Positions 28,785-46,537 of a stretch of 47,525 nucleotides of DNA are shown piece after piece. Each line of letters starts with the position of its first letter. Position 1 is the first letter of the stretch. The notes under the pieces were generated by a model. It was not told where the DNA came from. It saw only the letters and a list, made by a program, of their open reading frames with translations, and ran no database searches. Source of the stretch: Candidatus Paraprevotella stercoravium (lineage in GTDB: Bacteria > Bacteroidota > Bacteroidia > Bacteroidales > Bacteroidaceae); NCBI GenBank assembly GCA_944320795.1, contig CALUIU010000024.1, forward strand, positions 1-47,525. The letters run 5' to 3'. The position numbers were made by a program, and so were the translations under genes.

Positions 28785-28809
28785 GCCTCTTGTTTAGAAT
28801 TTCTGAGGC
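28785..28809 (-). terminator. Possible terminator of the tolC-ABC operon
   Basis: On the minus strand a 5-bp GCCTC/GAGGC stem with a 15-nt loop is followed by TTTTTCTG. The stem overlaps the last codons of the GIN-domain gene. The stem is short, so the call is weak. Confidence 0.4.
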
Positions 28810-29801
28810 GCATCCTTGGAATAGGTCACGTTGGGTTGGCCTTTATAGAATACTTTTCCATGATGTTCTATTTCGCAATAAAGCGTCTGTTCGGCCCGGC
28901 AGTAGATTTCACCGTTGATACATTTCGCGGTTACTTCCTGGGCAATACAGTTCTCTGCATGAAGTTCTCCGAATCCGGCGAACTGATAGTTTGCTTTCCG
29001 GGCTTCTCCTTCCAATCGCAGGATACCGGTACCGGCTACTGCTCCGGCCAGCTCCTTCGTCTGGATTCCTGCAATATGGATGTTTCCCGAACCGGCAATA
29101 CTGACATCGCATTTTTCCGACTCTACTTTGGGGCAGGATATATTTCCCGAACCGGCAATACTTATTTCACATTCCTTAGAGTCTATCTGAGAACTGCTGA
29201 TGTTTCCCGATCCGCTTATTCTCCATTCCAGACTTTCGGCTTGAATATGGGAGCAAGACATACTCCCGGAACCGGCTATGTTCATGCTCAACTTCTGATC
29301 GCATTTCAGGCCGGGGGCCTTGAAACTGCCGCTGCCGGCAATGGATACTTTCAGATGATTCGTGTTCATTTCTTTACTGAGATCTATGCTGCCCGAGCCG
29401 ATGATCTGGATTTCCTCCAAATAACGGTAGGGGAGAATAAGCTCTATATCGTTGTAATGCGCTTCCACATTGTCCTTGAATTTGAGATACAGCCTGTCAT
29501 CGTTTATTTCTGTTTGGATCAGATCGGCGAGGTTTTCCGGCATACGGAGTGATACCTCATTTTTGTTGGTCGGTGTGATGCGAAGCACGATGGAAGTGAT
29601 GTCGATTCTCTTCAGGCTTCTTGCATTCAACTTTTGGGTGATATACTTGCTGCTGGCGTAAAATACCGGGCGGTTAACGCTGCTTCCGGTTCCGATCATA
29701 TGGTTGTACTGCAGGTTGTTTTGTACGGTCTGAGACTGTGCACAGGCGTTGAGACTTACTGAGAACAGGAATATTCCGGCTAAATTTCGAATTGTTTTCA
29801 T
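28794..29801 (-). CDS. GIN-domain (DUF2807) lipoprotein
   Basis: This is a 335-residue predicted lipoprotein. The signal peptide MKTIRNLAGIFLFSVSLNAC has its lipobox Cys at residue 20. The mature part is a repetitive beta structure of the head GIN / DUF2807 type, with a GSG turn roughly every 20 residues (IIGSGSID, IAGSGSF, IAGSGSM, ISGSGNI, IAGSGNI, IAGSGNI, VAGTGIL). The repeat is also visible in DNA as an exact 60-bp period. Such domains probably form a beta-helix-like adhesive or structural surface in the envelope; no activity is known. It is the last gene of the tolC-HlyD-ATPase-permease operon, 20 nt after the permease, which suggests a partner role in the exporter. Confidence 0.85.
   Translation of the reverse strand: MKTIRNLAGIFLFSVSLNACAQSQTVQNNLQYNHMIGTGSSVNRPVFYASSKYITQKLNARSLKRIDITSIVLRITPTNKNEVSLRMPENLADLIQTEINDDRLYLKFKDNVEAHYNDIELILPYRYLEEIQIIGSGSIDLSKEMNTNHLKVSIAGSGSFKAPGLKCDQKLSMNIAGSGSMSCSHIQAESLEWRISGSGNISSSQIDSKECEISIAGSGNISCPKVESEKCDVSIAGSGNIHIAGIQTKELAGAVAGTGILRLEGEARKANYQFAGFGELHAENCIAQEVTAKCINGEIYCRAEQTLYCEIEHHGKVFYKGQPNVTYSKDAPQKF
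29084..29280 (-). repeat. 60-bp coding repeat in the GIN-domain gene
   Basis: TTTCCCGAACCGGCAATACT or a close variant recurs at exactly 60-bp spacing over at least four units, matching the 20-residue IAGSGNI repeat of the protein. Confidence 0.8.
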
Positions 29802-29821: not shown

Positions 29822-32167
29822 TTATTCTGTTTTAATACTGTCCACGGGATTCTCTGTGGCAACACGTCCGCTTTGCAAGACAACGGTTAGAAGTACCACG
29901 ACGCTGACCATCAGAAAGGCCAATGGGAAGAACCACCAGTATATCGGGGTATGCTCGGCAAAATTCTGCAACCACTTTGTGCTGATATAGTAGCCGACCG
30001 GAGCAGCGATCACGAAAGCCACAAGCAGGGGAACCAGATAGCGTCCGGCAAAGAGCAGAAGCACCTCGTGCACCGTGCTGCCCATAATCTTTCGGATGGC
30101 TATTTCCTTTCTCCGGTATTCCGTTTCAAAGAGCGTGAGGCAGAACACACCGATAAGTGTGATGAAGATACAGATGAAAGCAAACAATTTTACCTGGGCA
30201 ATGAACCGGAATTCTTCTTCATAGGTTATTTGCAGATCCTCGTCCAGGAATCGGAACTCGCACGTTTCTTCTGTGTTCAGCTGCTTGATCAGTTGCTCCA
30301 ACTGCTTCTTGGCTTCCAGTTTGTCGTATCCGTCGGTGATGCGTACAAAGACATTTTTATTGCGGTCGCCCCAGTTGACCGTCATATCGGGGCTCATGAT
30401 GATAAACGCGGCTGGAATGGTATTGTTGTCGTTGCGCATGGAGGTGAGTTTATAATTCTCGCAGATGCCTACTACCGGATAATGGCTCTCTTCGCTTCCC
30501 CAACCTTCAATATCCTGCCCGATGGGCTGTTCCAGTTTGATCCAGGGATATTTCTGAACCATGGCCCGGTTGAGGATATAGGCTCCTTGGCGGTCGTGCT
30601 GATTGAAATCTCTTCCTTCCACAATCTTTATATTCATGGTTTTTAGAAAATGCTCGTCTACACACAGGGCAAAAAATGACAGATTGTGTTCTCCGCTTCC
30701 GCGTCCCCAACTCATATATCCGTCGGTACTGCCTAATACGGATTCGGCAAAACTGCAGTTTTCTGCGAATGGAAGTTTGGTGATTTCCTGCCTCAGATAA
30801 TCTTTCTTGCTCAGGGCTTCATACGGAAGCTGTGCATAGAGTACTTCGTCTTTGTTGAAGCCGTAGTCGGCGTTGAAAATATAATGAGTCTGTCCGGTCA
30901 TGACCAGTACATACAGAGTCATGACAAAGGCCACAATAAACTGCACGGTAAGCATGGTCCAGCGCAGCATCTTTCCTCGTGGTGACAATCCGAACGAGCC
31001 TTTCAGTACGAGTGCCGGTGGAAAAGATGTGGCATACCAGGAAGAGAACAATGTGGACAGGACTCCTATTCCCAAAGTGGCGAACAGAGTGATGCAAACC
31101 AGCCCTCCGTGTGTCTGGAGACTGATGTTTCCGGAAACCAGTTTCATGCATTCCGGACTTTTCTGGAAGAGGAGAATCAGCAGGGTGGCACCAATCAGAG
31201 CAACGACAGACCAGAATACATTTTCCAGAATCATTCCCAAACGCAGGCTGGCGGTTGTGCTTCCCATCACTTTACGGGTATTGATGCTGCGCATGCGCAC
31301 CGGAGTCTGTGCCAGTGAGAAGTTGGTAAAGTTGAGCAGGCCGATAATTAGAATAAAGATTGAGGCTGCCTGCAGCACATAGACAAGTGATTCGTTTCCT
31401 TTATCAGCATAGGCACTTCCTTCAAAGTAGGCGCGGTCCATTGGGATGAGCCGGAACTGTAATTTTGTTTCTTCCCCAAAGCGTTCTTTATATAGCTTTC
31501 CGATTTCCTTTTCCGCCTGTTCCTTGTTTTCGGGATTGTCCAGGCGCAGATAAATCTCGTTGTTCCATTCGCTCATACTTTGAAACCAACTCTCTTGATA
31601 ACACTGGAACAGTCCGTTTTCGAAAGAACAATTCTCTGCAAAATCCTGACATACTCCGATAATGGTCAGGTTTTCACTATTCCATTGCGGAATGGCGAAC
31701 TTTTTACCTACGGGATTTTCCGTTCCGAAAATCTGTCCGGCCAGACTTTCACTGATAATATAACCGTCGGGTTGTTCCTTCCAGCTGTTGGAGCCCGGAA
31801 GCAGATGGATCCCCCAAAAATCCAGAGTATTTTTATCAATGGTGGAAAGTCCCGTCTGAAATAAATTTTCTCCGACTTTGATATTTAAAGGTACTGCTCT
31901 GCACTTGTTCAAGGTTATTTCTTCTATATGAGGAATCTGCCCCCATAATTCTTTCAGTGGAGCCGGCAGGCTGGGGTACCATTTCGAATCTTCCCTACAT
32001 TCTACCCGATAGGTCCGCTGATAATCTTTCAGACTATGATTGAAGGTGTTGTTGTATTTCACCTGTGTCATGAACAGGTAGAAAGCCGCCAAAGCCATGC
32101 TCAGTCCGAGCAGATGGAGCAGTGTGGCCGTTTTATAGCGGCGCAGATAATAAAATAGCGCTTTCAT
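29822..32167 (-). CDS. FtsX/MacB-type ABC transporter permease 1
   Basis: This is a 781-residue integral membrane protein with two FtsX-like modules. A first helix (about residues 15-37) leads into a large periplasmic region (about 40-265), then three helices (about 270-380). A second module follows: one helix near 420, a periplasmic region of about 440-660, and three C-terminal helices with ETEYRRKEIAIRKIMGSTVHEVL. It is expected to work with the ATPase encoded 37 nt upstream and the TolC- and MacA-like proteins of the same operon. MacB-type systems transmit ATP-driven movement across the membrane instead of pumping through a channel. A paralogue lies at 35671-38022. The C-terminal halves of the two are almost identical, whereas the first periplasmic regions differ strongly. 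Confidence 0.9.
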   Translation of the reverse strand: MKALFYYLRRYKTATLLHLLGLSMALAAFYLFMTQVKYNNTFNHSLKDYQRTYRVECREDSKWYPSLPAPLKELWGQIPHIEEITLNKCRAVPLNIKVGENLFQTGLSTIDKNTLDFWGIHLLPGSNSWKEQPDGYIISESLAGQIFGTENPVGKKFAIPQWNSENLTIIGVCQDFAENCSFENGLFQCYQESWFQSMSEWNNEIYLRLDNPENKEQAEKEIGKLYKERFGEETKLQFRLIPMDRAYFEGSAYADKGNESLVYVLQAASIFILIIGLLNFTNFSLAQTPVRMRSINTRKVMGSTTASLRLGMILENVFWSVVALIGATLLILLFQKSPECMKLVSGNISLQTHGGLVCITLFATLGIGVLSTLFSSWYATSFPPALVLKGSFGLSPRGKMLRWTMLTVQFIVAFVMTLYVLVMTGQTHYIFNADYGFNKDEVLYAQLPYEALSKKDYLRQEITKLPFAENCSFAESVLGSTDGYMSWGRGSGEHNLSFFALCVDEHFLKTMNIKIVEGRDFNQHDRQGAYILNRAMVQKYPWIKLEQPIGQDIEGWGSEESHYPVVGICENYKLTSMRNDNNTIPAAFIIMSPDMTVNWGDRNKNVFVRITDGYDKLEAKKQLEQLIKQLNTEETCEFRFLDEDLQITYEEEFRFIAQVKLFAFICIFITLIGVFCLTLFETEYRRKEIAIRKIMGSTVHEVLLLFAGRYLVPLLVAFVIAAPVGYYISTKWLQNFAEHTPIYWWFFPLAFLMVSVVVLLTVVLQSGRVATENPVDSIKTE

Positions 32168-32204: not shown

Positions 32205-32885
32205 TTAAAGTAGTCCGTTGATCTGTTCTACAATCTGTCCGTCGAACATGTTGATGATCCGTTTTGCGTATGTGGCATCGTGCTGTGAGTGCGTCACCAT
32301 CACGATAGTGCTTCCTTCGCTGTTCAGCTGGCTCAGGAGTTCCATCACTTCCTTTCCGTTTTTTGAATCCAGATTACCGGTGGGCTCGTCTGCCAGAATC
32401 AGTTGCGGATTCCCCACCACGGCCCGGGCAATGGCCACCCTCTGTTGCTGTCCTCCGGAAAGTTGTTGCGGATAGTGCTTGGCTCTATGGCTCAGGTTCA
32501 CCTTGCGCAGGATGTCCAGTGTGCGCTGTTTGCGTTCGGCTTTGGACACCCCGAGGTATTTCAGCTGCAGTTCGATGTTCTCTTCTACGGTGAGTTCCTC
32601 GATCAGATTGAAGCTTTGGAACACAAATCCGATGCGTCCCTTGCGGTATTGGGTTCGGTCTTTTTCTTTCAGCTTGCTTACTTCTTCTTCGCCCAGCCAG
32701 TATGCTCCTTCATTGGGATTGTCCAGAAGTCCTAAAATATTCAGCAGGGTGGATTTACCGCATCCGCTAGGTCCCATAATGGCTACAAACTCTCCGTCCT
32801 TTACTTCGAGGCTGACTCCATTGAGGGCCACGGTTTCTATTTCTTCCGTACGGAAGATTTTGGTAAGATTCTCAATTCTAATCAT
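32205..32885 (-). CDS. MacB/LolD-type ABC transporter ATP-binding protein
   Basis: This is a 226-residue cytoplasmic ATPase subunit with all the usual motifs: Walker [10 protein letters not shown] near residue 38, Q-loop FVFQSFNLI, signature [14 protein letters not shown], Walker [14 protein letters not shown] and the switch His in VMVTHSQHD. It groups with the MacB/LolD/FtsE family that drives FtsX-type permeases. It is the only ATPase gene in the region, so it may serve both permease 1, 37 nt downstream, and the paralogous permease 2. It follows the HlyD-like gene by 50 nt in the same operon. Confidence 0.95.
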
Positions 32886-32935: not shown

Positions 32936-34186
32936 TTATTCGGTCAGCAGCACAATTTCATTGTTTTTGAATGCCTCATATCCGCTGGTGATCACTTCCT
33001 CGCCGGGTTCCAGACCTTCGGTCACTTCATAGTATTGCGGGTTCTGGCGTCCAATGCGGATAGGACGCCTATAGGCCTTTTCTCCGTTTTTATCCAGAAC
33101 AAAGATCCATTTTCCGCCGGTGGTCTGGAAGAAGGTTCCTTTGGGAATCAGAAGCGCCTGCTCCGACTTTCCTAATTCCAGGTTCAGGTTGTAGGTCTGT
33201 CCGCTGCGGATTTTGTCCGGATGTGCGCCGACAAAGACCATATCTATGCGGAACCGTCCGTCACGGACCTCTGGATATACTTTGCGGATGCGTAAACGGT
33301 AGGTCTTTTCATCGCGTACGAAGGTGGCCGTCAGTCCCGTTCGTACCCGGTCAATGTAATGTTCATCCAGAAGCGCTTCCACCTTGAAGTCCGACAGATC
33401 GTTGATCTGACCGATTTTTTCTCCGGCTCCGATGCTTTGTCCGAGTTCCACATCCAGCAGACCGAGTTCGCCGTCAATGCTGGAGCGTACATTCAGCTTT
33501 TCGCGGCGTTCGCGCACCATGAGCACGTTTTGCCGCATGTTGGCCAGATTCTCTTCCATCTGTTCCATTTGCGCTGAGCGGTAAATGCTGTCCTGCTTCA
33601 GTCTTTGCGAGATGAGTCCGTGCTTTTTCCGTGCCAGTTCATAGTCCTCCTCACTTTGCAGATATTCCTCCCGGCTGATCAGTTTTTCGTGATACAGCCG
33701 TTTGTTCTGTTCATAGTTTCTCTTTTTGCGTCGCACATCCATGTCGAGCGAGATCCGTTCCGTACGGTTGTTCAGCAGATCCTGCTGCATGGTGATCTGG
33801 GTGTTCCGAAGCAGATTCTGCTTTTCGGCCAGTTCCGCTTCCGCGTTAAGAATCTGCAAATCCAGATTGCTGTTGCTCAATTTCAGGATGATGTCTCCTT
33901 TTTTCACTTTGCTTCCTTCTTCGATGATCTTCTCGCGGACAATGCCGCCTTCCTCCGGCGATACCTGCACCACCTGAATGGGCACCACCTGTCCGTTGAG
34001 CCGTACGTAGTCTTTAAAAAGTCCTCGGGTTACCCTGCTGATGGTCTGTTGCTTCTTGGAAGCTTTTACTGCCTGTGTCTGGCTGCCGAGCACCAGCCAC
34101 ATCAGGCCGGTAATCAGGGCGACGGCAGCGGCGCCATAAAGAAGATAACGGTAAATAGGATTTGTTTTTTTTATTTTTCGGTCCAT
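32936..34186 (-). CDS. Periplasmic adaptor subunit (HlyD/MacA-like)
   Basis: This is a 416-residue membrane-fusion protein anchored by one N-terminal helix (about residues 14-34). It has a split biotinyl/lipoyl-like domain (SPEEGGIVREKIIEEGSKVKKGD and RSSIDGELGLLDVELGQSIGAG) around a long coiled-coil hairpin (about 105-225). Beta-barrel and membrane-proximal domains follow (PKGTFFQTTGGKWIFV, ITSGYEAFKNNE). It would link the inner-membrane permease/ATPase to the TolC-like channel. Its start overlaps the end of the TolC-like gene by 16 nt, so the two are translationally coupled. The substrate of the exporter is unknown. Confidence 0.9.
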   Translation of the reverse strand: MDRKIKKTNPIYRYLLYGAAAVALITGLMWLVLGSQTQAVKASKKQQTISRVTRGLFKDYVRLNGQVVPIQVVQVSPEEGGIVREKIIEEGSKVKKGDIILKLSNSNLDLQILNAEAELAEKQNLLRNTQITMQQDLLNNRTERISLDMDVRRKKRNYEQNKRLYHEKLISREEYLQSEEDYELARKKHGLISQRLKQDSIYRSAQMEQMEENLANMRQNVLMVRERREKLNVRSSIDGELGLLDVELGQSIGAGEKIGQINDLSDFKVEALLDEHYIDRVRTGLTATFVRDEKTYRLRIRKVYPEVRDGRFRIDMVFVGAHPDKIRSGQTYNLNLELGKSEQALLIPKGTFFQTTGGKWIFVLDKNGEKAYRRPIRIGRQNPQYYEVTEGLEPGEEVITSGYEAFKNNEIVLLTE

Positions 34187-35511
34187 AAGGCGTTTCCTTG
34201 ATAATAGTTCAACAATCGGGTGTTATAGTACAGGTTCAGGCGACATTGCAACTGCTGTGCCTGACTCTGAAGAAGGGCGACCGTAACGGTCTGGACATCG
34301 ATGGGAGAGGCCAATCCTTCTTCCCATTTACGGATGGTGATTTCTGCGGCAATGCTGTCGGCCTCTACTTTCTGTTCCATCTTCTTGATTTCCTGATATG
34401 CGTTCTCCCAGTCGGCCACAACTTCCGTAATCAGCCGTTGCAGTTCCTGCTGCTCGTATTCCAGATTTTCCTTGGCCTGCTCCAGTCTGTTCCGTCTTTC
34501 CCGAATGGAAGACAGAGTGTTTGTCCGGTTAAACAGAGGAATGGAAAGTGTGGCCGAGAGATATTGACCGGCATTGTTCCGCATCTGTTCCTGAAAGGCT
34601 CTGGCGTTTTTATCATTCATGTTCTTGAAGAATGAGGAAGATACGCCGGCATTCAACGACAGCGAAGGGTAAAGGTCTGCCTTGGCTGTTTTCAGATTGT
34701 ATTCAGCCATCTTCAGTGCGGTCTGGGCCTGAAGGATTTTAGGCTGTGTGTTTCGGGCATATTGGTATATGGAGTCGGTAGATGCGGAGCGGGCTTCACA
34801 GTGCCAGTCGGCAGAGGAAGCAAGAATCAGCGGGTCGCCGGTGGGATAATTCATTTCTCTTTTCAGAGTCAGCAAAGCCTGGTCGAGCAGGTTTTGCTGA
34901 TGCGTTGTTTCAAATTCGTCGGCAGCCAGACTGGCCTGCATCTGTTTCCATTCCGCTTCTCCTTTCCGTCCTACCTCCATCATCACCTGGGTCTGATGAA
35001 GCAGAGCCTTGCTCTGTTCCAGTTTCCGACGGGCAATGCGGAGTGTTTCCTGATAGTAAATGGCATCCAGATAGGCTTTCAGCACATTCAGTGCCACATT
35101 CTCTTTTTGCATCTGAAGAGCCTGTTTGCCGGAAAGAATCTGGGTTTTGGCCATACGGAGCTGGTGCAGACGGCGGAATCCTTCAAAAATGGAGAGAGAA
35201 GCAGACAGACTGTATCCGTTGGAGAAGGTGCTGACATCGGTGTATGTATTGGTCTGTGGGTCGATGGCACGTCCGAAATTGTTTTGCACATTGATATAAC
35301 TGCTTACATAGGGCAGGAAAGAGCCGATAGAACGGGTGCGTTGCGATTGGTAGTCATTCAGATTATAGACTTGCTGCCGTACCTGATGGTTATGCTCCAC
35401 AGCGTAATCCATGCACTGTTCCATGCTCCAGACTGTGCCGGAAGTTTCCTGTGCCTGGATGTTTCCGGTCAGCAGAAGCCAGATGAATCCGATAAGGTTT
35501 CGTTTAGACAT
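34171..35511 (-). CDS. TolC family outer-membrane efflux protein
   Basis: This is a 446-residue outer-membrane channel protein. The signal peptide MSKRNLIGFIWLLLTGNIQAQ is followed by two repeated outer-membrane-efflux modules. These are rich in long helices (AKTQILSGKQALQMQKENVALN, RLEQAKENLEYEQQELQRL), and the protein ends in YYNTRLLNYYQGNALW. It is the first gene of the operon for a TolC/MacA/MacB-like tripartite exporter plus a GIN lipoprotein. Its promoter region carries two TGTATGAT-type palindromes that are also found, at identical spacing, before the beta-barrel gene at 41187. The distance and phase suggest direct activation by a bound regulator. Confidence 0.93.
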   Translation of the reverse strand: MSKRNLIGFIWLLLTGNIQAQETSGTVWSMEQCMDYAVEHNHQVRQQVYNLNDYQSQRTRSIGSFLPYVSSYINVQNNFGRAIDPQTNTYTDVSTFSNGYSLSASLSIFEGFRRLHQLRMAKTQILSGKQALQMQKENVALNVLKAYLDAIYYQETLRIARRKLEQSKALLHQTQVMMEVGRKGEAEWKQMQASLAADEFETTHQQNLLDQALLTLKREMNYPTGDPLILASSADWHCEARSASTDSIYQYARNTQPKILQAQTALKMAEYNLKTAKADLYPSLSLNAGVSSSFFKNMNDKNARAFQEQMRNNAGQYLSATLSIPLFNRTNTLSSIRERRNRLEQAKENLEYEQQELQRLITEVVADWENAYQEIKKMEQKVEADSIAAEITIRKWEEGLASPIDVQTVTVALLQSQAQQLQCRLNLYYNTRLLNYYQGNALWTEK

Positions 35512-35538: not shown

Positions 35539-35569
35539 CAAAGATACGGCTCCGACCGGCAGCGGACAA
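35539..35569 (-). promoter_or_regulatory. Promoter of the tolC-ABC operon
   Basis: Minus strand: TTG (35567-35569), 20 nt, TATCTTTG (35539-35546), 27 nt before the start codon. Regulatory palindromes lie upstream, centred at 35604 and 35627. Confidence 0.65.
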
Positions 35570-35584
35570 GAAAAAGGAAGAACA

Positions 35585-35646
35585 CAGCACCACATTGTAT
35601 GATAATCATACAGTCGGTCGTATAATAATCATACAATGTGGTGCTG
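35585..35646. repeat. 62-bp inverted repeat enclosing the tolC operators
   Basis: Perfect 19-bp arms at 35585-35603 and 35628-35646 enclose 24 bp. The arms extend beyond the operator half-sites. They lie between the TolC-like gene and the stop of permease 2, so read from either strand they could also form a terminator-like stem without a T-run. Confidence 0.75.
35596..35635. promoter_or_regulatory. Paired 17-bp palindromic operators A and B (tolC promoter)
   Basis: Site A, TGTATGATAATCATACA, spans 35596-35612. Site B, CGTATAATAATCATACA, spans 35619-35635 and differs by two bases in one arm. The centres are 23 bp apart, and 65 and 88 bp from the downstream end of the -7 box. Both are inferred to bind the Fis-type regulator encoded at 41430-41951. 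Confidence 0.7.
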
Positions 35647-35670
35647 CCAAGGTTTGAAAATGTATTGGAC

Positions 35671-38022
35671 TTATTCTGTTTTGATACTGTTTACCGGATT
35701 TTCTGTGGCCACACGTCCGCTCTGCAAGACAACGGTCAGGAGTACCACAGTGCTGACCATCAAAAAGGCCAATGGGAAGAACCACCAGTATATCGGAGTG
35801 TGTTCGGCAAAGTTCTGCAACCATTTTGTGCTGATCAAGTAGCCGATCGGAGCGGCAAGCACAAAGGCTGCAAGCAGAGGAATCAGATAGCGTCCGGCAA
35901 AGAGCAGAAGTACTTCATGTACCGTGCTGCCCATAATCTTGCGGATGGCTATTTCCTTTCTCCGGTATTCCGTTTCAAAGAGCGTGAGGCAGAATACTCC
36001 GATGAGCGTGATGAAGATACAGATGAAGGCGAAGAATCTTACTTGGGCAATGAACAGGAATTCTTCTTCGTAAGTAATCTGCAGATCTTCGTCCAGGAAT
36101 CGGAATTCGCAACTCTCTTCCGTATCCAACTGTTTGATCAGTTGTTCCAACTGCTTCTTGGCCTCCAGCTTGTCGTATCCTTGGGCGATGCGTACAAAGA
36201 TCTTTTTATTGCGGTCGCCCCAGTCGGCCATATCGGGACCCATGATGACAAACGCGGCAGGAATCGTATGGCTGTCATAGCGCATGGAGGTGAGTTTATA
36301 GTTTTCGCAGATGCCCACCACCGGATAATGCCCTTCCGGGGTGTTCCAATCTTTGATATTTTTATTTATTGGTTGGTTCAGTGAAAGCCAGGGAAATTTC
36401 CGGCTCATGGTTTGGTTCAGGATATAGGCACCTTTACTGTCCTGTGGATTGAAATCTCGTCCTTTTGCGATCTTAATATCCATGGTTTTCAGGAAGTCTG
36501 CGTCCACACACAGGGCCTGGAAAGATATGCGATGGTTTCCGCTTCCACGTCCCCAGTACATATACCGGTCGGCGTTTCCCAATATATCTGCAGCGAAACT
36601 GCTGCTTTTTACAAAGGGAAGTCGGGTAATTTCCTGTTTCAGATAATCTTTCTTGTTTATGGCCGCATTCGGGATTTGGGCATAGAGCACTTTATCCTTA
36701 TTGAAGCCATAGTCGGCATTGAAAATATAATGTGTCTGTCCGGTCATGACCAGTGCATACAGAGTCATGGCAAAGGCCACAACAAACTGGCCGGTAAGTA
36801 TGATCCAGCGCAGTTTCTTTCCGCGTGGTGATTGTCCGAATGAACCTTTAAGCACAAGGGCCGATGGAATGGAGGTGGCATACCAGGCTGAAAACAGAGC
36901 CGACAGGATTCCAATTCCTAATGTGGTGAGCAAGGTGATGCCTGTCAGTTGCCCGTGATTTTGAAAACTGATGTCACCTGAAACCAGATTCATGCATTCC
37001 GGACTTTTCTGAAAGATCAGAATCAGCAAGACTGCACCGGCTAAGGCTACTGCCGTCAGGAAGATATTCTCCAGCACCATTTCCCGGCGCAGGCTGGCCG
37101 TGGAGGCTCCCATCACTTTGCGGGTGATCATGCTGCGCATACGTAGCGGTGCCTGTGCCAGAGAGAAGTTCGTAAAGTTAAACAGGCCGACAAGCAGGGC
37201 GAGAATGGAGATGATGGACATCATGTGGTCTGAAGGGCGATACCTGCTTCCGTTTGTCTGAGTAAGTTTGCTGAAGTTTGCTTGCTGGACAGGAAGCAAC
37301 CGGAAAGAGTCTTTTTTAGAAGACTGAAAGAAGCTTTCTGTCAGGGCTTTTTCTACGGATATTTTGTTTTTAGGATCGTCCAGACGTACAAAAATTTCAT
37401 AGTTCCAATTGCTCCAGTTTCCTAAGTGAAAATGCTCCCTGCGACGGATAAGTCCGTTTTTTATGGAGCTGTTGTCCGGAAAGTCCTGATAAATGCCCTG
37501 AATGGTTACCGGACGTTTACGGTTTTCTTCTGTAATAAACAAGGTTTTTCCAACGGGATTCTCTGCTCCGAATATCCTTCGGGCTGTTTTTTCGCTGAGG
37601 ATATATTCTGGTAGGTCTGCTTGTGCACTGTTTGCATCGGACTGCATCCTGATTCCCCAAAAACCAATGGCATTCGAACCCAGATCCAGATAACTGAGCT
37701 GGTAGGACATGCCCTTGTATTCCGTTTCGACTTGTTCCGTCAAGGCGCACAGACTGCTGATCTGTTCTATATGAGGCAGGTTCTGCCAGTATGAAACAAT
37801 CTCTATCGGAAACACGATATTCCAGTCATAAGGCTGTGAGGTAAATGAGGAGGTTTCTACCCGATAGGTTCGCTGATAATCTTTCAGGCTGGTATTGTAA
37901 TTGCGGTTGTATTCTGTTTGTGTCTGAAACAGGTAGAATAGGGCAATAGCCATACTTAATCCCAAAAGGTTAAGCAGGCTGGCCAGCTTGTATCTACGGA
38001 AGAAATAAAGCAAATATTTCAT
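35671..38022 (-). CDS. FtsX/MacB-type ABC transporter permease 2 (paralogue)
   Basis: This is a 783-residue paralogue of the permease at 29822-32167, with the same two FtsX-like modules. The last third is nearly identical to permease 1, for example in LEAKKQLEQLIKQL and ETEYRRKEIAIRKIMGSTVHEVL. The first periplasmic region (about residues 45-265) has diverged strongly. The start is set at 38022 (MKYLLYFFRRYK) by alignment with permease 1; an ATG two codons earlier, at 38028, is equally possible. No ATPase gene adjoins it, so it may share the one at 32205 or pair with permease 1. It lies between the beta-barrel gene and the tolC operon. No clear promoter was seen in its 276-nt upstream gap. 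Confidence 0.88.
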   Translation of the reverse strand: MKYLLYFFRRYKLASLLNLLGLSMAIALFYLFQTQTEYNRNYNTSLKDYQRTYRVETSSFTSQPYDWNIVFPIEIVSYWQNLPHIEQISSLCALTEQVETEYKGMSYQLSYLDLGSNAIGFWGIRMQSDANSAQADLPEYILSEKTARRIFGAENPVGKTLFITEENRKRPVTIQGIYQDFPDNSSIKNGLIRRREHFHLGNWSNWNYEIFVRLDDPKNKISVEKALTESFFQSSKKDSFRLLPVQQANFSKLTQTNGSRYRPSDHMMSIISILALLVGLFNFTNFSLAQAPLRMRSMITRKVMGASTASLRREMVLENIFLTAVALAGAVLLILIFQKSPECMNLVSGDISFQNHGQLTGITLLTTLGIGILSALFSAWYATSIPSALVLKGSFGQSPRGKKLRWIILTGQFVVAFAMTLYALVMTGQTHYIFNADYGFNKDKVLYAQIPNAAINKKDYLKQEITRLPFVKSSSFAADILGNADRYMYWGRGSGNHRISFQALCVDADFLKTMDIKIAKGRDFNPQDSKGAYILNQTMSRKFPWLSLNQPINKNIKDWNTPEGHYPVVGICENYKLTSMRYDSHTIPAAFVIMGPDMADWGDRNKKIFVRIAQGYDKLEAKKQLEQLIKQLDTEESCEFRFLDEDLQITYEEEFLFIAQVRFFAFICIFITLIGVFCLTLFETEYRRKEIAIRKIMGSTVHEVLLLFAGRYLIPLLAAFVLAAPIGYLISTKWLQNFAEHTPIYWWFFPLAFLMVSTVVLLTVVLQSGRVATENPVNSIKTE

Positions 38023-38130
38023 GGACATGGAATATTAATTCTACTTTTTATATTGAATTATTCATATTGTCTTTTGTTTGCTTATCGGGCATTTGGGGTG
38101 TTTATAACATTCCAATTTTATCAGAAAAGC

Positions 38131-38162
38131 CCCAGTAGTATGGGATTTCCATAGCTACTGGG
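38131..38162 (-). terminator. Hairpin between the beta-barrel gene and permease 2
   Basis: A long stem (CCCAGTAG with CTACTGGG, continuing into TATGG/CCATA with a one-base bulge) lies about 140 nt after the beta-barrel stop. On the minus strand it is followed by GCTTTTCTG. It may terminate the barrel transcript or shape the leader of permease 2. Confidence 0.5.
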
Positions 38163-38298
38163 TTCAATTTTAATAGCATTTACCGATAATAATGATGCAA
38201 AGTTATGCTTTTTCAGAATACAGTCAATGTTATTTATATAATATTTATTATTTAATTTATTGCTATTATATGAGTGTTTTGGTTGATACTTCTTTTTA

Positions 38299-41187
38299 TT
38301 ACTTTTTCTTGTTTACATTAAACCGGTATACCACATGCAGCAGGGCATAGCGGGGGATGACGTTGTTCCAGGTCTCTGTCCGGCCTTCCGCAGTGATCAC
38401 GTTCCGTACACTGGAGAGCTGTCCCAACAGGTCGAATCCGTCCAGTATCACGGACAGATTACCGTCCATCATCTTTTTGGCGATACGCATGTTCCATACC
38501 AGCTCGTTGGTATTCATGTCTGCCGAGGTATATCCTCTGCGGCTGAACATGGTCAGGTCGGTATTGACTTCCATACCCCAGGGAAGCTCCACTCTTCCGG
38601 TCATTCCATAGTTGAAGTCCACGGCGTTGATGGTCTCGAAGTCTTTTCTTTCCGAATCACTGTGCGTCCAGGTAGCTACTCCTTTCAGTCCCACGGACCA
38701 TTTGTCGTAGCGCATTTCCGCTCTCAGGTTCTCTGTCAGGTAGAGTGATTTAACTTTATTGCGCATCACCCGGTAGGTCTGGTCTTCGCCGAAGAGATCC
38801 ACACTGTTCACATAAGTGGCGTTGGTATTGGTATACAGGGTGATCTTTTTCTGCTTGTCCACCGGGCTGGAGAAGCCCACACTCATTTGCGTGTTCCAGC
38901 GCCCGGAGATATTTTCCGGTCGGGATATCTTTTTGGTTGTGTTTCGGTCGTAGCTGTATCCCATGATCACGGCATTCTTGCTGTAGTTATAGCTCATGTT
39001 GGCAGAGACCGTGCGCTGTCCTTTCAGAAAGTTGGAATAAGTCAGGGTCAAGGAATGATTGATCGTGTTCTTCAGATCCGGATTGCCGTAGATGGTGTTC
39101 ATCGGATCCTTGTCATCCACGACACTGACCAGACTGGTCAGGTTCGGAGCATAGGAATAGCAGTGATAGCTTAGTGAGAGATCATCATGCTTGTCCTTGG
39201 TCTTGTGAGTCAGTTTGACATACGGCTCAAAGAAAACGACATTCCGGGTGATGGTTGTATCCAGCTTGTTTCTCTGGTAATCCATGGCATAATGCTCGAT
39301 GCGCACGGGAGGCTCGATGTATACGGACCATTTGTGCTTCTTCGTGGTATTGAAGTTGTCCCATGTCAAGCGCACGCCCGGCTTGTGCTTGAAGTCATGC
39401 CGTCCCTGATTGTAGCTGTTCTGAACGTCCAGCACCTGATACAGAGAGTCCTCTGTAGAAGGAATGATGCCTATGTCGTGCCCGTTTGGGAATCCCCATG
39501 CGCCATATTCTCCCAGCTGATAAATACGTTCGCTACCGGAGTTGAAGCTCTGTCCGTACTGGTAGTAAGGAGTCAGGTCGAGCGATTGGGTCCGTGTGGG
39601 CAGGTAGAATCGGTATTCCGCCCGTGCGGAGTAATTGTAGGACTTTTGCGGCGTATCCCGGTACATGTTTCGGTAATCGGTTGTTGCGGTCTGGTTGTTC
39701 GGATAGTTGTAATAAATTCTTTGGAAGATATCATAATCGGCCTTGTTCCAGGAGCCGTCCAGAAATATTCTCAGAAAGTCGTAGGTGTGGGCAATCTGTT
39801 TGGAAAAGACTCCGCTGAATTTGGCGTTCATTTGGTCACCCTTATAAATGTAATCAGCGTACCCCCTCATCAGCAGATATTTATAGAAATCGAAGTTGTT
39901 TCCTTCCAGGAACAGACTGTCCATCACATTTCCCAGATTCTCCGGATTGACACTGAAATTCGCTCCCGTGGATATCCCGTTCGTTTTGTTCTTGTTGTAA
40001 GAGAAAGACGTATTGGTTGTCAGCTGAAGCTTTCCCTTTTCCTGCAACCGGTTTATTTCCAGCGCATGATTGGCATTCAGTCGCCAGGAGTCATTCCGGC
40101 TATTGGAAGAGCTTTCCTTGAAAGTGTTTCCTTCTGACAGGAAGTTCTCACCGCTTGTTCTCTGCCGGTTGTCCGCATGGAGATGGGTAACCTGCACATT
40201 CGTGCTCGACTTGTATATCTTGTTGTCCGTAAGAAAATGGTTGATGCCCGCGATTTGTCGCTCCTGAAGCCCGTTGGTGTTGTTTCCCGGGGTCCAGTTG
40301 CTGTTGGCACCCGGTGTGCGCTCATCATTCAGGTTGTTCACGTTGGCGAAAACCGAGATCCTTGAAAAAGGCGTGAAGCGGGAGGCGAAGAGACGTCCCA
40401 TGTAGCGGTTGTCTGTTCCATATCCCCCTTCCACGTTACCGACATACCCGGTGGAATATTCTTTTTTGAGGCGTACGTCCATCACCAGATTGCCTTCATC
40501 GGCCTTGAGCTGCATCGCTTCGTTGAATTTGTCCTTTTTATTATAAACCTTGACTTTGTCCACAGTCATAGCCGGCAGGTTTTCCAGAAGCACCTTGCTG
40601 TTGTTACCAAAAAACGCTTCGCCGTTCAGGAGCAGGCTGGTCACGAACTTGCCTTTGGCAAAGATGCGTCCGTCGTCCTTGATTTCCACACCCGGCAGTT
40701 TCTCGATGAGCTTGTCCAGCATGGAACCCTCGGCCAGCCGGAAAGCAGACGCGTCATACACCACGGTGTCTCCGTTCATATAGAACTTCACCTTGGTGGC
40801 CTTGACCACAACCTCATCCATGACCTGTTCTTTCAGATCATATTTTTTGCGCATGTAAAAGAATCCCAGATCGGTGTTCGGCGCTCTCCGGTAATATTTG
40901 ATGGTTACGGGATAATAAGCTGTCTCAAAACCTTCGTGCTCAAAACGGAGCAAGTATTCCCCCGGTTTCTCCCATGGCATCCGGAAATATCCAGAACCGG
41001 TATTCATGGAGTCTATTGCAGTACTATCCTTTTGGAGTAGATATACTTTGACATTGTTTATATTTTCGTTTGTAAAAAAATTCTTTACCAGTCCGGAAAT
41101 GGAACGGGTTCTTTGGCCTTGGGCTGAGGTTGCTCCGAACATTATCGCGAGCATCAGAAATAGAATGGTTTGTTTTTTCATCGTCAT
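38299..41187 (-). CDS. Outer-membrane beta-barrel family protein with carboxypeptidase-regulatory-like domain
   Basis: This is a 962-residue outer-membrane protein. After the signal peptide (MTMKKQTILFLMLAIMFGATSAQGQ) comes an N-terminal beta-sandwich with RSISGLVKNFFTNENINNVKVYL. A plug-like domain follows, with VVVKATKVKFYMNGDTVVYD and LIEKLPGVEIKDDGRIF. The rest is a long barrel of alternating aromatic-rich strands. This matches the OMP_b-brl_3 family, which is TonB-receptor-like but is not a SusC. The substrate is unknown. A frame opening at 41280 would run through the operators, so the ATG at 41187 (or 41181) is used. The promoter carries the same palindrome pair as the tolC operon, and the regulator is divergently encoded next door. 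Confidence 0.88.
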   Translation of the reverse strand: MTMKKQTILFLMLAIMFGATSAQGQRTRSISGLVKNFFTNENINNVKVYLLQKDSTAIDSMNTGSGYFRMPWEKPGEYLLRFEHEGFETAYYPVTIKYYRRAPNTDLGFFYMRKKYDLKEQVMDEVVVKATKVKFYMNGDTVVYDASAFRLAEGSMLDKLIEKLPGVEIKDDGRIFAKGKFVTSLLLNGEAFFGNNSKVLLENLPAMTVDKVKVYNKKDKFNEAMQLKADEGNLVMDVRLKKEYSTGYVGNVEGGYGTDNRYMGRLFASRFTPFSRISVFANVNNLNDERTPGANSNWTPGNNTNGLQERQIAGINHFLTDNKIYKSSTNVQVTHLHADNRQRTSGENFLSEGNTFKESSSNSRNDSWRLNANHALEINRLQEKGKLQLTTNTSFSYNKNKTNGISTGANFSVNPENLGNVMDSLFLEGNNFDFYKYLLMRGYADYIYKGDQMNAKFSGVFSKQIAHTYDFLRIFLDGSWNKADYDIFQRIYYNYPNNQTATTDYRNMYRDTPQKSYNYSARAEYRFYLPTRTQSLDLTPYYQYGQSFNSGSERIYQLGEYGAWGFPNGHDIGIIPSTEDSLYQVLDVQNSYNQGRHDFKHKPGVRLTWDNFNTTKKHKWSVYIEPPVRIEHYAMDYQRNKLDTTITRNVVFFEPYVKLTHKTKDKHDDLSLSYHCYSYAPNLTSLVSVVDDKDPMNTIYGNPDLKNTINHSLTLTYSNFLKGQRTVSANMSYNYSKNAVIMGYSYDRNTTKKISRPENISGRWNTQMSVGFSSPVDKQKKITLYTNTNATYVNSVDLFGEDQTYRVMRNKVKSLYLTENLRAEMRYDKWSVGLKGVATWTHSDSERKDFETINAVDFNYGMTGRVELPWGMEVNTDLTMFSRRGYTSADMNTNELVWNMRIAKKMMDGNLSVILDGFDLLGQLSSVRNVITAEGRTETWNNVIPRYALLHVVYRFNVNKKK

Positions 41188-41205
41188 TTTTGTTTGAGGT
41201 TCGCA

Positions 41206-41213
41206 CAAAAGTA
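41206..41213 (-). promoter_or_regulatory. -7 box of the beta-barrel gene
   Basis: TACTTTTG on the minus strand fits TAnnTTTG and lies 18 nt before the start codon at 41187. There is no TTG at -33, as expected for an activator-dependent promoter. The operators are centred 65 and 88 bp from the downstream end of this box. Confidence 0.6.
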
Positions 41214-41262
41214 GGGGGAGAATTTGGGCTGGCCATGCTTTCGGAAGGGCGTAACGGCGGTT

Positions 41263-41302
41263 TGTATGATAATCATACACTCTGCTGTATGATAATCATA
41301 CA
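41263..41302. promoter_or_regulatory. Paired 17-bp palindromic operators C and D (beta-barrel / regulator intergenic)
   Basis: Two perfect copies of TGTATGATAATCATACA lie at 41263-41279 and 41286-41302, centres 23 bp apart. The spacing to the barrel gene's -7 box equals that at the tolC promoter. They lie in the divergent region shared with the response regulator gene at 41430. Confidence 0.75.
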
Positions 41303-41361: not shown

Positions 41362-41369
41362 TATCTTTG
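41362..41369 (+). promoter_or_regulatory. -7 box of the response regulator/kinase operon
   Basis: TATCTTTG matches the consensus, 60 nt before the ATG at 41430. No -33 TTG is visible. Operators C and D lie 70-100 bp upstream, so autoregulation is possible. Confidence 0.5.
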
Positions 41370-41429: not shown

Positions 41430-41951
41430 ATGGCAAATTACGGAACAATTCTGGTTGTGGATGACAATCCGGCGATTCTGACCGCCGCGAAAATCTGTCT
41501 CGACGGTGTCTTTGAGCGGATTATCACATTGTCCAAACCCGACAGCATTATGGTGACGCTGAATCAGGAAACAATAGATGTGATTCTTCTGGATATGAAT
41601 TTTACGCTTGGCGTGAATTCGGGGCAGGACGGACTACTCTGGCTCCGGATGATTCACCGCCAACATCCCGATATCCCTGTGGTGCTGGTTACAGCTTATG
41701 CTGATGTGAAACTGGCGGTGCGCGGACTGAAAACCGGGGCTGTGGATTTTGTGACAAAGCCGTGGGACAATGAAGAACTGGTGCGTGTGCTGAAGGATGC
41801 CATTGACAACAGTCGGGAGGTGGTTCCATTGGAACAGGTGGAGCTGGAGCATGTGCACAAGGTTCTGGACAAGTGTCATGGAAATATCAGTAAAGCTGCG
41901 GAACTGCTCGGCATTACGCGGCAAACCCTTTATGCCAAAATGAAGCGATGA
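41430..41951 (+). CDS. Response regulator with receiver and Fis-type HTH, no AAA+ domain
   Basis: This is a 173-residue regulator. The receiver domain (residues about 5-125) has the acidic pair DD at 11-12, the phosphoacceptor Asp55 in VILLDMNF, Thr88 and Lys110 (VTKPW). A short linker leads to a Fis-type helix-turn-helix (about 138-173, ISKAAELLGITRQTLYAKM) like that of NtrC proteins. The central AAA+ sigma-54-activating domain is absent, as in ActR/RegA-type regulators, so it should act at ordinary promoters. It overlaps its kinase gene by 4 nt (ATGA). The likely targets are the TGTATGAT palindromes next to it and before the tolC operon; this is inferred from proximity and dyad symmetry. 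Confidence 0.92.
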   Translation: MANYGTILVVDDNPAILTAAKICLDGVFERIITLSKPDSIMVTLNQETIDVILLDMNFTLGVNSGQDGLLWLRMIHRQHPDIPVVLVTAYADVKLAVRGLKTGAVDFVTKPWDNEELVRVLKDAIDNSREVVPLEQVELEHVHKVLDKCHGNISKAAELLGITRQTLYAKMKR

Positions 41952-42787
41952 TGATTTACGGTGTGGTGATTGTCGGGATAGTTGTTCTGTGGGCCGGAAT
42001 CTGGTTCTACCGCCATCAGAAACTGCTTGAGGAGCGGGCCTTTCTGCTCCGGGAGGCGGTGCGCAACCGTGATTTTGCCCACCGCTTGCCGGTCAAGGGA
42101 CTGTTCTTCGGCGAGCGTGCGCTCCAGCGTACGGTGAATGATCTGAGCGAGGACATCAGCCGTCTGTTGGCCCAAAATGAAGTGGAGTCCTGGCAACGCC
42201 TGACACGTGTGCTGACGCATGAAATCATGAATGCCACAGCGCCTATCTCCAGCATCAGTCAGGCGTATCTGAATCATCCCAAGATCAAGGGCAGTTTTTA
42301 TGAAGAAGGCATCCGGGCCATTTATGAAACCAGTTGCGGACTCTCGGCTTTTGTAGACAGCTATCGCAAGCTGACCAGTCTGCAGGAGCCTAATCTCGAA
42401 GAGGTGGTCTTGTGTCCCTTTGTGGAAAGCATTCGGGCGCTCTATCCCGATTTGGAATGGCATCTGAATATAGAGCCGTCCGTCATCCTCAGTCTGGACG
42501 AGAACATGTGGCGGCAGGTGCTGATTAATTTGGTGAAGAATGCCCTTGAGGCTGGTGCCACGAAGATGGATATCCGTTGGCGCGACGGTCTTTATGTCAG
42601 CAACAACGGTTTGCCTATTCCGGCAGATGTGGCCTGTGAGATATTCGTTCCTTTCTTTACGACCAAGAAAACCGGTTCGGGCATCGGACTGTCCTTGTCG
42701 CGTCAGCTGATGGTCCGTCAGGGATATATGCTTACGCTGACCGAAAGACCGGTGAGCGGTTATACGGTAACTTTTATGATCCGGTAA
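41948..42787 (+). CDS. Sensor histidine kinase partner of the Fis-type regulator
   Basis: This is a 279-residue kinase with one N-terminal membrane helix (about residues 3-20) and almost no periplasmic part. It probably senses from within or near the membrane or cytoplasm. The H-box is RVLTHEIMNATAPI with His91. The ATPase domain has the N-box NLVKNALEA near 194-202, a G1-like SNNGLPIP in which the usual Asp is Asn, and FVPFFTTKKTGSGIGLSLSRQL. Its H-box is close to that of the kinase at 43873, which suggests common ancestry. Translation is coupled to the regulator by an ATGA overlap. Confidence 0.92.
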   Translation: MMIYGVVIVGIVVLWAGIWFYRHQKLLEERAFLLREAVRNRDFAHRLPVKGLFFGERALQRTVNDLSEDISRLLAQNEVESWQRLTRVLTHEIMNATAPISSISQAYLNHPKIKGSFYEEGIRAIYETSCGLSAFVDSYRKLTSLQEPNLEEVVLCPFVESIRALYPDLEWHLNIEPSVILSLDENMWRQVLINLVKNALEAGATKMDIRWRDGLYVSNNGLPIPADVACEIFVPFFTTKKTGSGIGLSLSRQLMVRQGYMLTLTERPVSGYTVTFMIR

Positions 42788-42888: not shown

Positions 42889-43722
42889 ATGAAAAAGAAC
42901 TATTTTTTATTCGCTCTGTTGGGAGCAGGTTTTTGTATCCAGAATCCGGTGATGGCCTCAGAGGTTTCCGGTAATGAATCGGTTAAGGTGTCTGCTGTGA
43001 TGCCTGTGGCTGACGTGCCTCAGACCGTGAAACCGTTCAAGGGACAGTGGTATTCTGATGAGATCTATATGGATATTGATTTTTATGGGAATACGGTTTC
43101 CGATCCGAATTCTATGGATGGCGATCCTTGTCCGGGTATCATCAAAGTGAGAAAAGGGGGATCGGAGATGAGTTATACCATTCTTTCCATGAAGGTAAAT
43201 GGAAAGAAAGCATCCGGTATTGTTTCCGACAATGATTTTCAGGAGCAGCCGATGAGTGCGGAAATATTGGCCGACGGCACGATGAAGATTACCATTCCGG
43301 CTCTTAAACTGATTATGGGAGAAGGAGACATTAAGGTATTCAAAGGAGAAAAGATTTTGAGGAAGGCTGCCCCGTTTGCCGGTAAATGGAGTCTGAAAGG
43401 GAATGGCATTGTTGCCGAAATGATCCTGAACCTGTATGACCGGTGTATCATGGGAATGAATGCCGACATGAATGATGCTCTTAGTTATGGCATTATCAAT
43501 ATTACCATGGGAATGAATGTGGACGATTGCAGTATTCTCTCTTGGGAAGGAGCAGGGAATACGGTGGATGTGAAGTTTGTCAGTTCGCGTTCGGGAGGCA
43601 TTTACAAAGCCAAACTCACTTATCTTCCGTCTACAAAAAAGATCAAGGTAAGTCAGGTGACTCCGGTAGGTTCCGATGCCGGAGAATGTTATCTGACAGA
43701 CGGCATGGAGTTCGTTTATTAA
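42889..43722 (+). CDS. Secreted protein of unknown function with two similar halves
   Basis: This is a 277-residue exported protein. The signal peptide MKKNYFLFALLGAGFCIQNPVMAS gives a soluble or loosely attached product with no lipobox. The mature part seems to hold two related beta-rich modules, one starting PFKGQWYSDEIYMDIDFYG and one PFAGKWSLKGNGIVAEMILN. Each is followed by Gly/Met-rich strands, a lipocalin-like look. No family is assigned with confidence. It follows the kinase gene by 101 nt, has its own -7 box and ends in a strong terminator. Its position between two two-component systems suggests an envelope role. Confidence 0.7.
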   Translation: MKKNYFLFALLGAGFCIQNPVMASEVSGNESVKVSAVMPVADVPQTVKPFKGQWYSDEIYMDIDFYGNTVSDPNSMDGDPCPGIIKVRKGGSEMSYTILSMKVNGKKASGIVSDNDFQEQPMSAEILADGTMKITIPALKLIMGEGDIKVFKGEKILRKAAPFAGKWSLKGNGIVAEMILNLYDRCIMGMNADMNDALSYGIINITMGMNVDDCSILSWEGAGNTVDVKFVSSRSGGIYKAKLTYLPSTKKIKVSQVTPVGSDAGECYLTDGMEFVY

Positions 43723-45160: not shown

Positions 45161-46537
45161 TTAGAGATTCAGCTTGTTTATTTTCCGATAGAGGGCAAAG
45201 CGTGTGATACCTAACAATTCTGCGGCAAAGGATAAGTTTCCGTTACTTCGGCGCACTGCTTTCTCTATGGCTTGTTTTTCCAGTTTTTCCAGATTCAGTT
45301 CCTCAAATTCAGTTTCTTTTTGTGTTATTCCCTGATCCGAAGAAAATTGCAGATCCTCGGGACGTAATATTTGATTGTGACTTAAAATAGCGGCGCGCTC
45401 CATGATATGCTGCAGCTCGCGCACATTGCCCGGCCAGTTGTATTTCATCAGTTTACTTTTGGCTTCCTGACTCAGTCCCGTAATGTTCTTTTTATATTTC
45501 CGGTTATACTGCTTCAAAAAGTGCATGGCTAGCAGGATGATGTCCTCGCCACGTTCACGCAAAGGCGGGATGTGCAGTTCGATGGTGTTGATGCGGTAGA
45601 GCAGGTCCTGACGGAAACTGCCTTCCTGAGCCTGTGCCGTGAGGTTGGCGTTGGTGGCGCAGATAAGGCGGATGTCGATGTCGCGCGTCTCCACCGAGCC
45701 CAAACGGGTGATGTACCGCTTCTCCAGAGCTGTGAGCAGTTTGGCCTGCATGGGAAGCGACAGGTTTCCGATTTCATCCAAAAAAAGTGTGCCGCCTGAA
45801 GCCATTTCCATACGTCCCGGTTTTGACGTGCGTGCATCGGTAAAGGCTCCCTTCTCATATCCGAAAAGTTCACTTTCGAACAGCTGTTCGGGAATGCTGC
45901 CCAAGTCGATGGTGATCAGTGCTTCATGGCGGCGCGGTGAGAAGTGTTTCACCATGTGGGCCACAACGTCCTTTCCCGTACCGTTTTCTCCCAAGATCAG
46001 GATATTGGCGTTCGTATCCGCTAATCTGCGGATGGTTTCCTTGACTTGAAGCATTGCCGGAGATTCTCCGATCAGTTCCGGCAGTTCATTACCTTCTTTC
46101 AGGGCCGACACCTGTTCCTGCAGACGGTAGATTTCCTTTTGGGATTGACTGAGCTTGAGTGCCGAGGAGAGGGTAGCCAGCAACTTTTCTTTTTCCCATG
46201 GCTTGGATATAAAGTCGGTGGCACCTGCCTTGATGGCACGCACGGCTTTCTCTGTGTCAGCATATGCTGTCATGAACACCACGACAGCCTTCGGGTCGAC
46301 CGACAGAATCTGCCCTAAATATTCAAAGCCTTCTTGCCCGTTGACGGCATTATTGCAGAAGTTCATGTCCAGTAGAATGATGTCCGGATGGAAGGTTTCC
46401 ATAAAATAGCGGATCTTTTCCGGATCCGTCGTTACTTTGATTTTTTCAAAGATTGGTTCCAATAATAATTTTAGTGAAAAGAGAATATCCTCATCATCAT
46501 CAATTATCAGTATTTTCCCATTTTGGAACATAGGCAT
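45161..46537 (-). CDS. NtrC-type sigma-54-dependent response regulator
   Basis: This is a 458-residue activator. The receiver domain (residues about 8-125) has Asp57, Thr90 and Lys112. The AAA+ domain (about 152-390) has Walker A GENGTGKD at 183-190, the sigma-54 contact loop GAFTDA at 230-235 (canonical GAFTGA has Gly where this has Asp) and Walker B LFLDE at 251-255. The Fis-type helix-turn-helix is at about 418-455 (NLSFAAELLGITRFALYRKINKL). It should activate RpoN-dependent promoters when phosphorylated. The kinase gene follows by 13 nt. A TATCTTTG box and a pair of GTGC/GCAC palindromes lie upstream. An internal ATG at 46531 is an alternative start. Confidence 0.95.
   Translation of the reverse strand: MPMFQNGKILIIDDDEDILFSLKLLLEPIFEKIKVTTDPEKIRYFMETFHPDIILLDMNFCNNAVNGQEGFEYLGQILSVDPKAVVVFMTAYADTEKAVRAIKAGATDFISKPWEKEKLLATLSSALKLSQSQKEIYRLQEQVSALKEGNELPELIGESPAMLQVKETIRRLADTNANILILGENGTGKDVVAHMVKHFSPRRHEALITIDLGSIPEQLFESELFGYEKGAFTDARTSKPGRMEMASGGTLFLDEIGNLSLPMQAKLLTALEKRYITRLGSVETRDIDIRLICATNANLTAQAQEGSFRQDLLYRINTIELHIPPLRERGEDIILLAMHFLKQYNRKYKKNITGLSQEAKSKLMKYNWPGNVRELQHIMERAAILSHNQILRPEDLQFSSDQGITQKETEFEELNLEKLEKQAIEKAVRRSNGNLSFAAELLGITRFALYRKINKLNL

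Follow-up and report, generated by a model that had tools for sequence, protein, structure and literature searches.

The 47,525-nucleotide stretch of Candidatus Paraprevotella stercoravium DNA analysed here (contig CALUIU010000024.1, called the window in its full length) carries a two-component system, two rows of putative efflux genes and, upstream of these rows, two pairs of 17-base-pair (bp) palindromes, or dyads, which are very probably the operators of that system. The response regulator (41430–41951, plus strand, 173 amino acids) consists of a receiver domain (REC; PF00072, residues 7–121) and a Fis-type helix-turn-helix (PF02954, residues 134–173), and no other Pfam family was found in the protein. 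The sigma54 AAA+ domain is absent from this REC-Fis regulator and present in the full-length NtrC-type protein encoded at 45161. The start of a histidine kinase gene (41948–42787, plus strand) overlaps the end of the regulator gene; its product of 279 amino acids has an HATPase_c domain and one hydrophobic N-terminal stretch, with no other Pfam domain found.

The candidate target genes all lie on the minus strand. A beta-barrel outer-membrane protein (OMP_b-brl_3, 38299–41181) is the first predicted target and is followed by an FtsX/MacB_PCD permease (35671–38028). The second row starts with a TolC-like outer-membrane factor (34171–35511) and continues with an HlyD/MacA-like adaptor (32936–34186), an ABC ATPase (32205–32885), a second FtsX/MacB-like permease (29822–32167) and, at its end, a GIN-domain (DUF2807) protein (28794–29801). 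As in the MacAB-TolC and DarBCD exporters, adaptor, ATPase, FtsX permease and TolC-like factor stand in one row; ATPase and permease, however, are separate proteins in the window, and the exporter models all scored below their cut-offs. The best NCBIfam model was DarC for the adaptor (209.5 of 450) and DarD for the ATPase (289.4 of 375), while MacB reached 229.9 of 966 and DarB 88.5 and 81.8 of 700, so that the genes cannot be assigned to MacB or DarBCD.

The palindrome TGTATGATAATCATACA occurs without mismatch at 35596, 41263 and 41286 and with two mismatches at 35619. Site 1, on the tolC side, comprises the putative operator dyads 35596–35612 and 35619–35635 (minus strand; centres 35604 and 35627); site 2, between the barrel gene and the regulator, comprises the putative dyads 41263–41279 and 41286–41302 (centres 41271 and 41294). 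Minus-strand −7 boxes were found at 35539–35546 (TATCTTTG, tolC operon) and at 41206–41213 (TACTTTTG, barrel gene), and at both promoters the dyad centres lie exactly 65 and 88 bp upstream of the box end. A −33-like CTTG is seen 20 bp upstream of the tolC −7 box (35567–35570, minus strand); its counterpart at the barrel promoter is weaker (CATG). TATCTTTG recurs on the plus strand at 41362–41369 as the −7 box of a candidate autoregulated promoter of the regulator/kinase operon. Because the 41263 pair lies between divergent genes, it faces the barrel promoter on one side (65 bp) and the −7 box of the regulator on the other, 75 bp away from the 41286 dyad. The boxes at both targets and at the regulator promoter follow the Bacteroidota primary-sigma consensus, which PMC7366714 gives as TAnnTTTG at −7 with a TTTG-like −33.

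Dyads and pairs are rare outside these places. Searching both strands of the window for TGTATGATAATCATACA with up to three mismatches gave 8 matches, all at the four known places, compared with 0.10 expected from 100 shuffled windows. Over the whole genome at up to two mismatches, only two lone dyads, each with two mismatches, were added (contigs C37 and C40). A 40-bp pair model, with 150 of 1234 first-look candidates scored, returned the two sites at E-values of 1.5e-8 and 3.5e-6, two weak partial matches within site 1 and a next match outside site 1 at 0.9. With a weight matrix built on 60 sites, excluding the window, L042 and L043, the two window sites scored 49.6 and 40.9 and the next-best place in the window −5.6. 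The first-pass annotation of this DNA had described the four dyads with 23 bp between the centres of each pair, and a TAnnTTTG box at each promoter 65 and 88 bp from these centres, all of which was re-measured exactly; its observation that the window holds no further copy was confirmed, and the genome-wide palindrome search it had proposed located the pair only here. It had overlooked an inverted repeat at 35585–35646, the regulator's own box at 41362–41369 and the sigma54-type relatives described below, and it had implied a Bacteroides host, whereas the nearest named records are uncultured Paraprevotella.

The pair travels with the regulator. Searches for the regulator covered 18 genomes of the genus, 399 of the family and 393 of the order; the 67 matches of the family search comprised 60 short (REC-Fis) and 7 full-length regulators, and the neighbourhoods of all 60 short-regulator loci, window included, were compared. 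In a scan of 350 bp upstream that scored only symmetry and likeness of two 17-mers, with no sequence specified, 23 bp was the best gap in 42 of 60 loci; the profile was flat in 300 shuffles. With a matrix of pairs (threshold 24), 50 of 60 loci showed a 23-bp pair in the 2 kb preceding the regulator, or 49 of 59 when L043, which is near-identical to the window, was dropped. Among 30 further close orthologues (63–81% identity, 3 of them from the order search), on which the matrix had not been trained, 29 had the pair, L171 being the exception; in the named collection of genomes, which includes Segatella copri iA622 and Parabacteroides strains as carriers of the system, 13 loci already covered and 17 matches that were partial or confined to the receiver had been set aside. 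Since several loci are near-copies of each other, these counts are not independent trials. Pair and regulator also co-occur across genomes: among the matches listed, the pair model hit 43 of 51 family genomes with a short regulator as opposed to 20 of 348 without one, in a 399-genome scan with stricter filters and 16 candidates scored per genome. An exact pair pattern, run over 201 family genomes, was too strict and found only G000 and G010; the divergent pairs it missed surfaced through the regulator neighbourhoods.

Three dyads at 23-bp steps, instead of two, precede the regulator in L147 (Parabacteroides distasonis NM39_I3). Several copies of the pair, some letter-identical and mostly upstream of different FtsX genes, are present on contigs C29, C40 and C91 of G241 (L227, L228), where the regulon has apparently expanded.

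The position of the pair relative to the promoter is conserved as well. At the first 63 sites (L043 dropped), the distance from the facing dyad centre to the end of the target-side box is 65 bp in 48 cases, 66 bp in 6 and 64 bp in 2. A second set of sites had the box at 65 bp in 32 of 35 rows and at 88 bp in one more, L147, as a consequence of its three dyads in a row. Over 120 non-redundant sites, which include sites elsewhere in the genomes and were selected by the operator and never by the box, a box ends at 64–66 bp on one side in 108; 29 permuted motifs did so at 0.4 sites on average and at 4 at most. The promoter profile of the sites with a 65-bp box is enriched in a −33-like C/T-T-T-G 20 bp upstream of the −7 box. 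A further motif, ATCnGC, is conserved in the family immediately beside the proximal dyad on the target side and partly kept in the window; it may offer regulator or polymerase an additional point of contact. The sites, their geometry, their conservation and their association with the regulator and with efflux genes can be read at the level of sequence. The nearest target open reading frame (ORF) at the 63 sites encodes TolC in 26, FtsX in 14, MacA in 4, ABC in 3 and a barrel protein in 3; at 11 sites it matched no window protein and 2 sites had no ORF. G009, with an 87%-identical orthologue, lacks the barrel and first FtsX genes at this place, and there tolC itself and the regulator diverge, the 65/88 geometry being unchanged. 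The earlier proposals, in which the neighbouring REC-Fis regulator uses the pairs as operators and selection accounts for the identical geometry, are strengthened by these counts from relatives, where the spacing to TAnnTTTG boxes had been named as a check. We regard it as exceedingly improbable that the geometry shared within the window arose by chance or by recent copying of a single promoter region. Two FtsX genes of the genome resemble each other, so a segment of the locus must once have been duplicated, but the two window promoters show no obvious likeness from dyads to boxes, and 108 of 120 sites repeat the geometry.

Towards the regulator the spacing varies. A box was found in 60 of 73 primary sites, at about 25, 55, 64, 76 and 87 bp and, less often, at 45, 48, 120 and 126 bp. 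This spacing is periodic near 10.25–10.5 bp (R 0.80–0.77, all 62 boxes), suggestive of a helical-turn ladder. The shortest distances bear on the possibility that the pairs are this regulator's operators but serve as repressor sites, or block its own promoter only, which we hold to be unlikely. A bound protein would indeed overlap the −33 region at 13 of 62 boxes, which lie only 24–25 bp from the facing dyad centre. On the target side, however, the distance is nearly constant and leaves −33 and −7 free, as for an activator, and the regulator's own promoter in the window is at 75 bp, not 25. The AAA+ relatives, moreover, have their dyads before sigma54-type promoters, a class that depends on an activator.

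The sigma54-type loci came in part from the 20 family genomes that, among the matches listed, had a pair and no short regulator. Loci of 16 of them were compared. Fourteen have a dyad spacing of 21 or 22 bp, or of 23 bp in G016, with TGGCA 52–55 bp from the operator end and no TAnnTTTG box at 64–66 bp; the other two (G080, G324) have 23-bp pairs of the short-regulator kind. Among full-length-regulator loci of the genus, six of seven (L009, L012–L016) have 22-bp pairs with TGGCA at 54–55 bp and the seventh, L010, is the G016 place again; L011 showed no pair above the scan rule. The −24-like TGGCA at 52–55 bp is thus present in 21 of 21 loci, representing 20 places, a count of TGGCA by itself, which is a weak motif made telling by its constant place. 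The strict −24/−12 score was reached in 8 of the 14 loci L229–L242, the rest having a weaker −12 ending in GT or similar. In 11 of 21 loci (10 places) the pair has a full-length REC-AAA+-Fis regulator as its neighbour; the other 10 showed no regulator within the compared stretch. G016, of the window's genus, has the row TolC, MacA-like, FtsX, ABC with TGGCACGGCATTTGCT at 55 bp before tolC. At the 63 short-regulator sites, −24/−12 elements appeared at background level only (7 on the left and 3 on the right, compared with 8.4% per 260 bp). Control of FtsX-like ABC permeases by sigma54 in Bacteroidia has been predicted, and called first evidence for the family, in the accessible part of PMC12316311; that part deals with the same target family and host class and mentions neither a REC-Fis branch nor tandem dyads nor any version with primary sigma.

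Full-length NtrC-type proteins that adjoin similar dyads elsewhere raise the question whether another regulator, for example the one encoded at 45161, binds the pairs in the window. We consider this highly improbable: the 45161 protein belongs to a different tree group, no dyad pair was found in the loci of that group (L017–L035, scanned over 3-kb stretches), and across genomes the pairs track the short regulator.

Receiver-domain trees place the short regulators next to full-length proteins with dyad pairs. A tree of 124 rows has the short regulators on one side of a branch (88 rows) with a Shimodaira-Hasegawa-like approximate likelihood-ratio support (SH-aLRT) of 81; a more careful tree of 56 rows has the 20 short regulators on one side of a branch with support of 75/92, recovered in 70% of bootstrap trees. 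Of these 20, 17 fall in the starred clade of the careful tree and three at an unresolved fork, and the outgroup does not form one side of a branch. A single loss of the AAA+ domain would be the simplest reading, and the trees would also allow more than one. Loss of sigma54 as the cause of this domain loss was rejected, since all 21 genomes tested, G000 included, keep the sigma54 DNA-binding domain. Both versions are present within one genus (window and G016). We lean towards a history in which the efflux regulon was first under a sigma54 enhancer-binding protein and was taken over by a descendant without the AAA+ motor. Dyads and targets would have stayed and the spacing settled at 23 bp. A primary-sigma promoter, fixed in position nearly to the base pair (65 bp), would have replaced the sigma54 core promoter, and the promoter of the regulator itself would have shifted by helical turns. 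The direction of change, from sigma54 to primary sigma, is the one we infer from the sequence comparison.

The half-sites fall into the types TGTATGA, TGTCTAA, TGTCCAA, TGTCAAA and TGTATTA and vary together with the recognition helix, whose varying residues we take to be counterparts of the base-contacting residues in Escherichia coli Fis. The helix SRQRLY pairs with TGTATTA, TRQTLY[AKR] with TGTATGA, and asparagine at position 169 with all C-type loci. R166 was present in 12 of 12 TGTATTA loci and in 0 of 65 others; N169 was present in all 26 loci with a C-type half-site, and no such half-site occurred in the 43 loci without it. Mutual information is equally high at several receiver positions, so that this association mostly follows descent.

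Strong folds are predicted for both pairs (about −35 to −42 kcal/mol, z −7 to −9), and it is therefore worth considering that they matter as nucleic-acid hairpins, namely terminators, attenuators or repeats of the REP/MITE kind, and not as protein operators. At site 1, the dyads sit in an extended inverted repeat (35585–35646) with 27-nucleotide arms that are 93% complementary, all 11 of 11 flanking bases on each side beyond the dyads being complementary, and the repeat lies 24 nucleotides past the stop codon of the FtsX gene, with an interrupted U-rich tract after it. A strong fold of two dyads, however, follows from their symmetry. The outer flanks are not conserved in complementarity over the family, with a mean of 3.5 of 11 compared with 3.1 for mixed flanks; the highest values are 8 in L071 and 11 at site 1. 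The elements also stand upstream of promoters and occur twice in the genome. We therefore rejected a hairpin or repeat as the main meaning of the pairs, an explanation that appears very unlikely, and likewise a MITE/REP element, given only two pairs in the genome. The hairpin is a local feature, no other site sharing its flank complementarity to this extent, and the repeat at site 1 perhaps doubles as terminator of the preceding FtsX gene.

Several observations weigh against the pairs being operators of the REC-Fis regulator at conserved activator positions. Ten of the 60 loci have no pair above threshold: L084, which is cut by a contig end, L092, L111, L116, L117, L118, L121, L122, L123 and L125. 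L117 scored 19, just under the threshold of 24, and L111 and several further pairless loci of about 50–55% identity seem to carry a single dyad upstream. None of 13 more distant relatives (at most 46% identity) that were scanned had the pair. The box at 64–66 bp is missing from 12 of the 120 sites. The regulator-side ladder is moderate, with a cluster-level p of 0.02–0.04 and some signal also at a period of 12.5. Finally, the association of helix and half-site represents one or few tree events, and independent pairs of this number cannot reach significance. Two of the pairless loci, L118 and L125, have about three tandem TCATGATGGAATGATGA-like dyads spaced by 22 bp upstream of the regulator; their regulators belong to a more distant REC-Fis branch, whose own upstream region shows one dyad of the TGTCTAA type.

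With these points taken into account, we still consider it very probable that the neighbouring two-component system uses the two pairs as operators to recruit primary sigma to the efflux genes. The kinase (41948) would phosphorylate the regulator (41430), dimers of which would bind each 17-bp dyad via the Fis-type helix-turn-helix. As 23 bp correspond to about 2.2 turns, the two dimers would lie roughly on one face of the DNA and may act together. Their position, 65 and 88 bp from the −7 box end and upstream of −33, would let them recruit primary-sigma RNA polymerase in a class I-like manner to barrel-FtsX and to tolC-macA-ABC-FtsX-GIN. The 41263 pair may, from its other face, control regulator and kinase, which would amount to autoregulation. 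Binding, cooperativity, activation and operon boundaries are what we infer here, and the regulator itself would descend from an enhancer-binding protein of REC-AAA+-Fis layout that acted at sigma54 promoters from tandem dyads of a similar kind.

Two further features of the window stand apart from this system. Downstream of the kinase gene, 42889–43722 encodes a protein of 277 amino acids with a signal-like N-terminus and no Pfam family. A 21-bp tandem repeat of ACAAGCTYGRAYSRTAATAAT-like units is located at 18021–18100, inside or near the end of the ORF 16751–18331.

Proteins of the RegA/PrrA/ActR type act at primary-sigma promoters and share with the window regulator the layout of a receiver and a Fis-type helix-turn-helix without AAA+. 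Membership in this family was nevertheless rejected, since the regulator scored 61.6 bits against the NF033791 cut-off of 250; partner kinase, targets and dyads differ too, and its closest relatives are of NtrC type. The receiver domain is nearest to that of NtrC-type enhancer-binding proteins, and the relatives among these have tandem 17-bp dyads, with the same half-site types, before sigma54-type promoters of FtsX/ABC genes. Unlike them, the window system has no AAA+ domain, primary-sigma boxes in place of −24/−12 and a dyad spacing of 23 bp where theirs is mostly 21–22 bp. Another NtrC, that of Rhodobacter capsulatus, acts from tandem sites at primary-sigma promoters and is not known to use sigma54; it has, however, kept its central domain, which the window regulator lacks.

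No description of this REC-Fis branch or of its efflux regulon was found in the literature searched. If the proposed reading holds, the locus would represent a two-component efflux regulon of Bacteroidales with a readable operator code, and its position rule would be tight enough for targets to be predicted from sequence alone. What would set it apart from an ordinary regulon is the breadth of this position rule, together with the existence of a sigma54-type sister within the genus. The locus would, in addition, show with unusual clarity how an activator can lose its sigma54 motor and keep its regulon by exchange of the core promoter. With the two states found in a single genus, and on the same TolC-MacA-FtsX-ABC set, the steps between them could be rebuilt and tested.

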